A stretch of DNA of 64,000 nt from assembly GCA_026387935.1 (NCBI GenBank), contig JAPLKU010000013.1, forward strand, positions 1-64,000. Reading direction: 5' to 3'. Source of the stretch: Gemmatimonadota bacterium (lineage in GTDB: Bacteria; Gemmatimonadota; Gemmatimonadetes; Gemmatimonadales; Gemmatimonadaceae). Positions 24,172 through 49,460 of the stretch are shown here, in pieces. The notes beneath the pieces were generated by a model. It ran no database searches, was not told the origin of the DNA, and worked only from the letters and a program-made list of their open reading frames with translations. Numbering within the stretch: the first letter of the stretch is position 1; every line of letters begins with the position of its first letter. Both the position numbers and the translations under genes were made by a program.

Positions 24172-25233
24172 CTACTGATACTGAATGTAGATCGGCCGCG
24201 GCCAGAGACGGAGAATCTCGGCGATCGTCGTGCGCGGATTGTCGTTGCGCGGCTTGAAGAACTGCTTCCATCCCACGAACTGCACCGGCTCTGACTTGAT
24301 GTAGTTGTGGAACGTGCCCTTCTTCAGCTCCGGCGGCCCGAATCCGTCCATGTCGATGACCACCTGCACGCGCGGATCCAGCTTGATGTTCTTGTAGTTG
24401 GTGAGCCCGGCTTTCGTGAACCGGTGGATCACGAGAATCTTGGGCGGCACCTTGTTCTTCGTCACGAGATCGGCGAGGAACTCGGTTGCGAAGTTGATGT
24501 CCGCGGCGTCGTACGTGCCAATCTTCTTTCCCGGCAGGCCACCGTTCTTCATGGAGAACTCGGGATCCACGCCGAGGTGAAAGTTCGGGCGCGACAGAAA
24601 TCCGGCGAGGCGCGGCAGCTCTTCACGCAGAGTCGAGAGCCCCACCTGCAGGTCGAGGAACACGAGTGCGTCGCGGCGCTTCGCGAGCGCAGCCACCTTC
24701 TCGATCGTCGCCGAATCCATGCGCGCGCGATACTTGCCGTCCTTGCCGGCACTGGCCTGTGCCACCACCGCAATGAAATGCAGCGCGGGCTGTACCGGCG
24801 TACCCGGGTCGGCTTTCTGCCACGCCGAAACCTCTTCGTCGAGGCGGCGCAGCATTTCGTCTGGCTGGTACTCGCCGAGCACGCCCATGCGCGTGTTGAG
24901 AATGTTGCCGTAGAAGGCAATCACCCGTTTCGCAGGGAGAATCGCGCCGGGCAGCGCGTCCGGGCCCTTCACGGGCCACATCGCGTCGAGAATCGAATCT
25001 CGAAGCGCCTGGCCGGTCAGTCCTTTGGGCGGTGCAGGCGCCTTCTTCGTCGTGTCGCGCGGTGCTTTGTTTCGCGCGGCTTTGGTCGACTTTGTCTGGG
25101 TTGCAGCCGCGCGCACCGTTGAATCGAGCGCGGCTTTCTTTTTCGGCGCGGTGTCGGTCTGGGCGAAGACTGACGTGCTGGCCGCGCCGATGAGCGCGGC
25201 GGCAAGGAATGTGCGGGCAGTGTTGGGGATCAT
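24172..25233 (-). CDS. Exported protein of unknown function, possible TIM-barrel
   Basis: A 353-residue protein with signal peptide MIPNTARTFLAAALIGAAST and a Lys/Ala/Thr-rich linker. A folded domain then has regular alternating strands and helices (RVIAFYGNILNTRMGVLG, ALHFIAVVAQAS, LVFLDLQVG, KILVIHRFTKAG, VQVVIDMDGFG). The pattern, with acidic residues after strands, suggests a TIM-barrel hydrolase-like fold, but no named family is recognised. The ATG at 25233 is chosen for the signal peptide; an upstream in-frame start is unlikely. Confidence 0.7.
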   Translation of the reverse strand: MIPNTARTFLAAALIGAASTSVFAQTDTAPKKKAALDSTVRAAATQTKSTKAARNKAPRDTTKKAPAPPKGLTGQALRDSILDAMWPVKGPDALPGAILPAKRVIAFYGNILNTRMGVLGEYQPDEMLRRLDEEVSAWQKADPGTPVQPALHFIAVVAQASAGKDGKYRARMDSATIEKVAALAKRRDALVFLDLQVGLSTLREELPRLAGFLSRPNFHLGVDPEFSMKNGGLPGKKIGTYDAADINFATEFLADLVTKNKVPPKILVIHRFTKAGLTNYKNIKLDPRVQVVIDMDGFGPPELKKGTFHNYIKSEPVQFVGWKQFFKPRNDNPRTTIAEILRLWPRPIYIQYQ

Positions 25234-25267
25234 CTCGCGGCGAAAACTAGTCGCCTGCGCGGCTGTT

Positions 25268-25343
25268 GTTGCAGTTCCCACCTATTTGCTGTCGCACTCT
25301 CCGCGCCTCTCCGCTGCGGTTGTCAGCGGAGAGTCCCGGTTTC
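25268..25343 (-). repeat. Half copy of the structured dispersed repeat
   Basis: Read on the plus strand this begins GTTGCAGTTCCCA and contains TATTTGCTG, CTCTCCGCG and TGTCAGCGGA in the same order and spacing as the reverse complement of 49287-49363. It includes a perfect 9-bp hairpin, CTCTCCGCT (25307-25315) with AGCGGAGAG (25325-25333). It lies between two minus-strand genes. The other half of the element is absent. Confidence 0.75.
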
Positions 25344-47749: not shown

Positions 47750-47934
47750 CTTACGCGTGGCCGCGGAGATCCACGGAGAAAAGCGCTGAGTGTCGCGGGT
47801 AGGTGAACCGCACATGCTTGGGAACTGCAACGGCGCGTAGTGGTAGTTGTAGTTGTCGTTTCCCATCAGTTGCAGTTGCAGTCTCCGTGGATCTCGGGTT
47901 ACTTCTTGGCGATTCTCCGCGGCCACGCCCTAAG
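47750..47934. repeat. Structured dispersed repeat, full copy 1
   Basis: The outer arms are CTTACGCGTGGCCGCGGAGA (47750-47769) and its near-complement at 47914-47934. The inner arms are GAGATCCACGGAGA, starting at 47766, with TCTCCGTGGATCTC (47882-47895), and ACTGCAAC (47824-47831) with GTTGCAGT (47869-47876). It fills most of the gap between thrB and the divergent APC permease. It matches copy 2 at 49287-49460 in layout and orientation, and differs at arm positions in a compensatory way. Confidence 0.85.
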
Positions 47935-47951
47935 ATCATGATTGCACTCGA

Positions 47952-49307
47952 ATGCTGAAGCGCACACTTGGCACGATCGCCCTCATGGCGGTCATGTTTT
48001 TCAACGTCAGTGGCGGACCGTTCTCGATCGAGGGCCTCGTCGCAGCGCTCGGCCCCGTGCTCGCGATTGCGATGCTCGGGATCCTGCCGTTCATCTGGGC
48101 GCTCCCCGAGACGCTCATTGTCGCCGAGCTCGCGAGCATGCTCCCCGAAGAGGGCGGCTACTACACGTGGGTGCGGCGCGCGTTCGGTCCGTTCTGGGCG
48201 TTTCAGAACGGCTGGATCACCTGGTTGTACTCGTGTGTGGACATGGCGCTCTATCCGGTCCTGTTCAACACGTACCTCGCCTGGTTTGTGCCGGGAATGC
48301 CCGACGGCGCACGATGGGTGATCGCACTCGCCGTGATCTGGGGTGCGACGGCCATCAACCTCCGCGGCGCGCTGAACGTCGGTCGGGTGAGCATGGTTGC
48401 CGGGGTGTTTGTCATCACCGCGTTCGCGGCGATGGTGGCTTTCGCGGTGCCGCACATGACGCACCTGCCGTGGGCCAACGCGTCGCTCTTGGGCGGCGGC
48501 GAATCCGGAGGGGAATCGAGCGGTAGCGAAAAGAGCGTCACCTCGCTCCTTGCCGTCGGTCTCTCGACGGCGCTCTGGAACTACATCGGCTGGGACAATG
48601 CGAGCACCGTCAGTGGCGAGGTGAAGGACCCGTCGCGCAGCTACCCCCGCGCGTTGTTCACGGTGCTGCCACTCATTGTATTCGTGTACTTCGCGACCAT
48701 GCTGCCGGCGCTCGCCGCGACGAACTGGAGTACTTGGAAGGAAGGGAGTTGGCCGGCCATTGCCGCCGCCGCGACTGGGCGGGCGGGTCCGTTCATCGCC
48801 GCGTGGGTCGCCATCGCTGGAATGGTGAGCGCGCTCGCGCTGTTCAACGCCCTGCTGCTCTCGTATTCGCGCATTCCGCTGGTGATGGCCGCCGACGGGC
48901 TGCTCCCCAAGCCGTTGGCGGTCATGGACGCGCGCGGCACGCCACGCAATGCCGTGCTCGCGAGCGCCGTCTGTTACTCCGTGTTTGTGCTGCTGCCGTT
49001 TGCCAAGCTGGTCGTCGCGGACGTCGTGCTCTATGCGGTTGCGCTCCTGATGGAACTGGCATCGCTCATCGCGCTGCGGCGCAAGGAACCGGAGTTGCGC
49101 GGTGTTTTTCGCCTGCCGTTCGGCGCTCGCGGCGTGACGGCACTCGCCGCGCTGCCGGCAATCGTACTGATCGCGCTCGTCTGGCTTTCGCTCGCCGACG
49201 GGGACTCGGCGTTGCCGGCCGTGATCGGCTCCATCGTGGCGATAGTGCTCGGCGTGCCGCTCTACCGGTGGCGTGCTTCTGTGCCTGGAACCGCGGAGAT
49301 CCGCTGA
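47952..49307 (+). CDS. APC-family amino acid permease
   Basis: A 451-residue inner-membrane transporter with about 12 helices. Helix 1 carries the unwound substrate-binding motif NVSGGPFSIEG. EGGYYTWVRRAFGPFWAFQNGW and a helix-6 motif NYIGWDNASTVSGEVKDPSR are typical of the APC (amino acid/polyamine) superfamily. A Gly/Ser-rich loop lies near residue 180. The last few codons and the stop are contributed by the second repeat copy, so the C-terminus may have been reshaped. The substrate is unknown. Confidence 0.92.
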   Translation: MLKRTLGTIALMAVMFFNVSGGPFSIEGLVAALGPVLAIAMLGILPFIWALPETLIVAELASMLPEEGGYYTWVRRAFGPFWAFQNGWITWLYSCVDMALYPVLFNTYLAWFVPGMPDGARWVIALAVIWGATAINLRGALNVGRVSMVAGVFVITAFAAMVAFAVPHMTHLPWANASLLGGGESGGESSGSEKSVTSLLAVGLSTALWNYIGWDNASTVSGEVKDPSRSYPRALFTVLPLIVFVYFATMLPALAATNWSTWKEGSWPAIAAAATGRAGPFIAAWVAIAGMVSALALFNALLLSYSRIPLVMAADGLLPKPLAVMDARGTPRNAVLASAVCYSVFVLLPFAKLVVADVVLYAVALLMELASLIALRRKEPELRGVFRLPFGARGVTALAALPAIVLIALVWLSLADGDSALPAVIGSIVAIVLGVPLYRWRASVPGTAEIR

Positions 49308-49460
49308 CACCGGCAGCGAAGATCCGCGGAGACGACGGCAGTAAATATTTTGGGAACTACAACGACACTCGGTTGTCGAAGCCGTCGCCGTTACCCCATC
49401 GGTTGTAGTTGCGGTCTCCGCGGTTGCTCAGCCCTTTTTTCTGCGGATCTCCGCGGTTCC
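49287..49460. repeat. Structured dispersed repeat, full copy 2
   Basis: Perfect 18-bp terminal inverted repeats: GGAACCGCGGAGATCCGC (49287-49304) and its complement (49443-49460). The inner arms are GATCCGCGGAGAC (49321-49333) with GTCTCCGCGG, and ACTACAAC (49356-49363) with GTTGTAGT (49402-49409). It has the same orientation as copy 1. It overlaps the APC gene end and stops 25 bases before the response-regulator ATG. Confidence 0.88.

Follow-up and report, generated by a model that had tools for sequence, protein, structure and literature searches.

The window analysed here, a 64,000-nucleotide stretch of DNA from a Gemmatimonadaceae genome, contains two nested palindromes of about 175 bp each, at 47755-47929 and 49287-49460. 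The question raised by this locus is what kind of element they are and whether their inverted repeats are maintained as a folded structure or belong to something that moves, both of which had been proposed.

Structure and position of the two copies

Copy 1 is a hairpin element without an ORF, of arm type I with GCGTGGCCGCGG termini, and is flanked by divergently oriented genes (47687 minus, 47952 plus). Its left outer arm at 47755-47780 includes the unit pair CGCGGA-GATC-CACGGA (47762), its right outer arm is found at 47903-47928 and its core, GGAACTGCAACG..CGTTTCCC, is diverged and occupies 47821-47865. Copy 2 also lacks an ORF and has the termini GGAACC/GGTTCC. The outer and middle units of its left arm lie at 49287-49333, the core (TGGGAACTACAACGAC..GTCGCCGTTACCCCA) at 49350-49400 and the right arm at 49414-49460, with CGCGGA-GATC-CGCAGA on the reverse strand (49455). 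Copy 2 starts inside the 3' end of the upstream ORF (47952-49307), which from its translation appears to encode an APC-type permease, and the last codons and the stop of this ORF come from the element; the other end of the copy just precedes a response-regulator ORF. A covariance model, for which 15 copies were aligned and whose E-values are rough, recovers both copies and in addition a weak and probably decayed third copy at 25178-25343 (27 bits, E 1.8e-5). The elements and their parts are given without strand.

The folding energies of copies 1 and 2 are 5.4 and 6.3 SD under those of dinucleotide shuffles, none of 200 shuffles being equally stable, and folding with DNA parameters gave a z of -6.4. 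A sequence-only reading had described a dispersed repeat with one nested inverted-repeat layout in both copies. This was confirmed: the two are present where that reading placed them, have long nested inverted repeats and are members of a dispersed family.

The same reading had taken paired changes between the two copies to suggest that selection acts on a folded RNA or single-stranded DNA, which the larger set of copies does not bear out. One of the proposed changes, ATCCACGGAGA (47769) against ATCCGCGGAGA (49322), sets two different, non-homologous arm units side by side, located in columns 22-32 and 46-56 of the 15-copy alignment. The other, ACTG/ACTA (columns 89/121), is a G-C pair in 5 copies, A-U in 2, G-U in 2 and unpaired in 6 of the 15. 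In a 52-pair, three-stem structure 85.7% of the cells pair over the 15 copies, compared with 85.5% in shuffles. Double changes in this structure are at the level of shuffles, with 10 such pairs against 9.5 +/- 2.0, and 249 of 500 shuffles were as high. Only one double change is clean: the outermost AA/TT becomes GG/CC in 3 of 15 copies, which represents two terminal variants. Unpaired changes in additional copies thus contradict the compensatory claim and leave the repeat itself standing: the palindrome is real, with no covariation to indicate that an RNA fold is selected. Because shuffling makes a weak control when copies have spread recently, this null result is absence of evidence and not proof against a structured role.

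A structured non-coding RNA, as judged by covariation, was rejected, double changes being no commoner than in shuffles. The Rfam scan gave no family for the repeats, and its sole match at the gathering threshold was a tRNA.

Distribution in the genome and the genus

The genome (2.8 Mb in 28 contigs, about 95% complete) was searched with DNA and with the covariance model. About 16 strong copies with common outer arms (GGAACCGCGGAGATCCGCGGAGA or GCGTGGCCGCGG..) were found genome-wide, and about 30 places, the strong copies included, at E<=1e-3. The weaker places have the core in common (CTTGGGGGAACTGCNACGAC .. GTCGTNGCAGTTCCCCCAAG) and differ in the arms, for example GGGGTCTCGGCGCTATCGCG or GCATCACCGACTTTG, and some of the weaker hairpins are mosaics of two arm types. 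The mosaic hairpins at L008/L108 and L098, with left and right arms from different families, suggest recombination between element families. Copies in the family measure about 160-185 bp as nested hairpins, and those in this genome fill the space between genes, for the most part 4-33 nt away from the stop codon of a neighbour.

Within the genus the covariance model has matches in 14 of 18 genomes, and in the loci read the core is common and the arms differ. The window copies are absent from the orthologous permease loci of congeners. A different palindromic element, GTTAACG..CGACGGGACAGGT..ACCTGTCCCGTCG, is present beside the permease in two congeners (L112, L114), which have it at one common locus.

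An empty site was found for the copy at C11:16542-16711. This copy is absent in three relatives (G173, G207 and G200): there the two genes that flank it, which we read as nuoD/nuoE, abut within 0-45 bp; the flanks of empty sites in the nearest relatives are too diverged for exact junctions or a target-site duplication to be read. Another element site is occupied in two species, and copies sharing a site in this way could be old and vertically inherited.

The GxxExxY ORF in the loop

A copy on contig C15 carries a GxxExxY ORF in its loop (C15:76-414), followed directly by the right arm of the family; the start of the contig lies within the left arm. The ORF matches TIGR04256 with 131.8 bits (cut-off 35) and PF13366 (PDDEXK_3) with 129.6 bits (cut-off 22), and this copy has arm and core in common with the ORF-less copies of the same genome. 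The orthologous element in a congener (G173) is complete, with left arm, an ATG within the core, a 135-aa ORF and right arm, the arms being GGAACCGCGG..CCGCGGTTCC. The layout of a complete element is accordingly a left arm of iterated 9-10-nt units (here CCGCGGAGAT), a core (GGGGGAACTGC..), a GxxExxY ORF of about 125-140 aa that starts and ends in the arms, an inverted core and a right arm. The two other GxxExxY ORFs of the genome are also found between inverted repeats, of other sequence.

Comparison of the two orthologous ORFs gave a dN/dS of about 0.05 (dS saturated), which indicates purifying selection on the ORF. The congener's protein (L234) has lost two catalytic Glu (GFLE to GFLK, VECK to VGCK) with the remaining protein conserved, and this loss despite apparent conservation makes a poor fit to a simple autonomous transposon.

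The PD-(D/E)XK residues E, D, E-x-K and Q are invariant in GxxExxY. The AlphaFold2 model has a pLDDT of 96.5, and the nearest solved folds among the fold families listed are Cas4 SSO0001 4ic1 (Z 9.9), then MGME1, LHK-Exo and lambda exonuclease. In this list, Z values below 8 are common background, and the homing endonuclease domain 3r3p is among the weak matches. On this confident model GxxExxY is predicted to be a Cas4/RecB-type nuclease with a Cas4-like fold. A PDB sequence search with the protein found no relative, and the open-licence PMC papers searched held no functional account of it.

GxxExxY loci in other bacteria

GxxExxY is present in 61 of 200 Gemmatimonadota genomes, and a scan of a wider collection gave 80 loci from many phyla. 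The scan was seeded by a two-sequence alignment, so the sample leans to proteins near those two, and the choice of motif was blind to the flanks; the statistics below come from this one scan and from loci related by descent. With 250 bp taken on each side, inverted repeats score at least 18 at 58 of the 78 loci with enough flank; when the windows were shifted along these loci, 3 of 397 reached that score. Flanks from other loci were dropped as a control because arms common between genomes inflate it. About a quarter of the 78 loci are without a detectable inverted repeat, and within Gemmatimonadota only 15 of 33 loci score at least 18, a subset in which the 90th percentile of the shifted windows is already 18.9.

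The arms follow a common grammar. Their unit is C-R-C-R-R-A-N3-4, 9-10 nt long and iterated, and it is common to the window copies. A unit pair was found forward upstream at 60 of 77 loci and reversed downstream at 55 of 77, with 9 of 402 per strand in controls, figures that are descriptive since the pattern was derived from the same loci. In the window family, which lay outside this derivation, 13 of 15 copies have the unit pair, both window copies included. The best arm period is 9 or 10 in 101 of 105 GxxExxY arms. Arms are dispersed in 10 of the 12 ORF-bearing genomes tested, with up to 53 matches and none for the reversed-pattern control in all 12; one genome (G214) has eleven short hairpins against one pair at ORF spacing.

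With neighbouring genes assigned by longest ORF rather than annotation, 52 of 61 loci have a codirectional upstream ORF (p = 0.005 if the background is taken as 70%), and the first unit of the left arm begins a median of 10 nt past the stop of a codirectional upstream ORF (n=39 loci). Two different betaproteobacteria (L184 and L192) have GxxExxY elements at what, by our own reading, is apparently the same sdhA/sdhB junction.

In one genome (G016, L237-L243) near-identical copies with a truncated GxxExxY ORF lie inside the ends GTAGTGGGTCAGTTT..AAACTGACCCACTAC. By resemblance these ends may be of IS21 type, the element apparently hitch-hiking in a MITE, and at least once, here, another vehicle has evidently spread the truncated copies. 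A plasmid or phage as the vehicle was rejected: GxxExxY is rare among plasmid sequences, occurring in 7 of 72,556 records, and gave no match in the phages searched.

A parallel family with TIGR02436 ORFs

Free-standing ORFs of TIGR02436 (S23p, a four-helix bundle) were found in 82 of 150 Gemmatimonadota genomes. Such loci are flanked by inverted repeats in 22 of 26 cases, compared with 2 of 156 shifted windows, and the arms have a 7-nt period in most cases (34 of 38 at 7 or 14). Free-standing ORFs between inverted repeats of 7-nt units are seen for instance at L129 and L325-L354. These loci look as if they were a second class of hairpin element. The periods of 9-10 nt with GxxExxY and 7 nt with TIGR02436 imply that different proteins go with different arm periods. 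TIGR02436/S23p ORFs are known from rRNA intervening sequences (IVS). The IVS of Coxiella is a stem-loop with an S23p ORF that is cut by RNase III; its origin is unclear and it is regarded as selfish (PMC4990558). It is the nearest described relative in layout.

Interpretation

The window repeats are probably ORF-less, MITE-like, non-autonomous copies of a hairpin mobile element that in its complete form contains the PD-(D/E)XK GxxExxY ORF. This reading draws on an association of GxxExxY with the arms that recurs across many phyla, on ORF-less derivatives in the same genomes, on the stop-proximal position and on at least one insertion event. That the copies have their ends in common with a coding element of their own genome, and that empty sites exist, is as expected of a MITE. 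Of the earlier suggestion of a mobile or REP-like element, the non-autonomous mobile part holds, given the dispersed intergenic family, the empty sites and the ORF-carrying relative, and the classical REP part does not, given the size of about 175 bp and the lack of a Y1 transposase.

The element would move as one unit. The GxxExxY protein may recognise the units of the arms in the form of extruded or single-stranded hairpin DNA, and could cut or trim DNA so that copying into a new site starts; ORF-less copies would be mobilised in trans, and the loop ORF might be expressed by read-through from the upstream host gene. More tentatively, and with the balance somewhat against it, these elements could form a pan-bacterial mobile class without a known transposase, having C-R-C-R-R-A hairpins, a loop-encoded Cas4/RecB-like nuclease, insertion after stops and ORF-less copies mobilised in trans, with S23p/IVS as a parallel 7-nt class.

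A rival account places the effect at the RNA level. The hairpin would then act in the transcript like an IVS, with RNase III cutting the long stem so that the insert is separated or tolerated, and be kept for processing, for protection of the mRNA 3' end or for termination, GxxExxY being a passenger. The copies do lie a few nt past stop codons, within operons too, their RNA folds are very stable, and S23p/TIGR02436 ORFs have the same layout (22/26 against 2/156), that of the Coxiella stem-loop cut by RNase III (PMC4990558). The covariation, however, is not above that of shuffles, the proteins closest to GxxExxY in fold are for the most part DNA nucleases and one window copy lies between divergent genes, and since dispersal and empty sites are also left unexplained we regard this account as unlikely.

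Two further explanations keep the DNA level and change the part played by the ORF. Repeats of REP/BIME type that the host maintains, or that an unseen transposase moves, might carry GxxExxY as occasional cargo; the copies are indeed intergenic, palindromic and 3' of genes, and those within IS21-like ends in G016 agree with it. This is improbable, as the association recurs in many phyla under one unit grammar, the TIGR02436 period differs in the way expected if arms match their protein, the genome has no Y1 transposase, and the ORF is rare on plasmids and was not found in phages. In a homing-type element the nuclease would cut the empty site and recombination with flanking homology would then copy the element into it, with dispersed copies as rare ectopic events. 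The PD-(D/E)XK fold, the weak match to 3r3p and the two betaproteobacterial loci at the sdhA/sdhB junction point in this direction, but there are many unrelated insertion sites per genome and no common target sequence was seen beyond the nearby stop codon, which makes homing very improbable.

ORFs of both GxxExxY and S23p are widespread among bacteria. With each tied to a repeat grammar of its own, a protein family that was anonymous and repeats that were merely dispersed become one testable element, and the data suggest transposase-free spread by a Cas4-like nuclease. If the parallel 7-nt class is real it would explain the source of rRNA intervening sequences, for which it is a candidate origin. 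The arms are relevant to operon expression as well, because copies are found between sdhA/sdhB, sufD/sufS, atpD/atpC and nuoD/nuoE, as we read these genes.

Comparison with known systems

No description of the association between GxxExxY and hairpin arms was found in the open-licence PMC papers searched, and elements of this build seem to be undescribed so far. In the parts of the literature consulted, REP/REPIN sequences with RAYT are similar in being dispersed intergenic palindromes in which each protein-coding partner goes with many copies that lack an ORF (PMC2817692, PMC3116915). They differ in that the partner is a Y1 transposase, whereas here a PD-(D/E)XK nuclease is encoded in the loop of the element, and in that the REP/REPIN palindrome is short (20-40 bp), compared with nested hairpins of about 160-185 bp with iterated 9-10-nt units. 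A classical REP/REPIN-RAYT system was rejected on the absence of any match to the Y1 (RAYT) transposase, PF01797, in the genome of about 95% completeness and on the copy length of about 175 bp.

The IVS of 23S rRNA are likewise hairpins with a short ORF in the loop (PMC4990558). The present elements do not belong to them: they are intergenic, behind protein genes and not in rRNA helices, their ORF is TIGR04256 and not S23p, and their arm units are of 9-10 nt instead of 7 nt. Bacterial MITEs such as QMITE1/2 of Coxiella are, in the portion of the source available, about 150-400 bp long, located in 3' UTRs and intergenic regions and present in about 50 copies (PMC5896051), which is close to the pattern seen here. 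The same portion describes the QMITEs with direct repeats (PMC5896051), whereas for the present elements no target duplication is demonstrable, and their ORF-bearing relative encodes a predicted Cas4-like nuclease.
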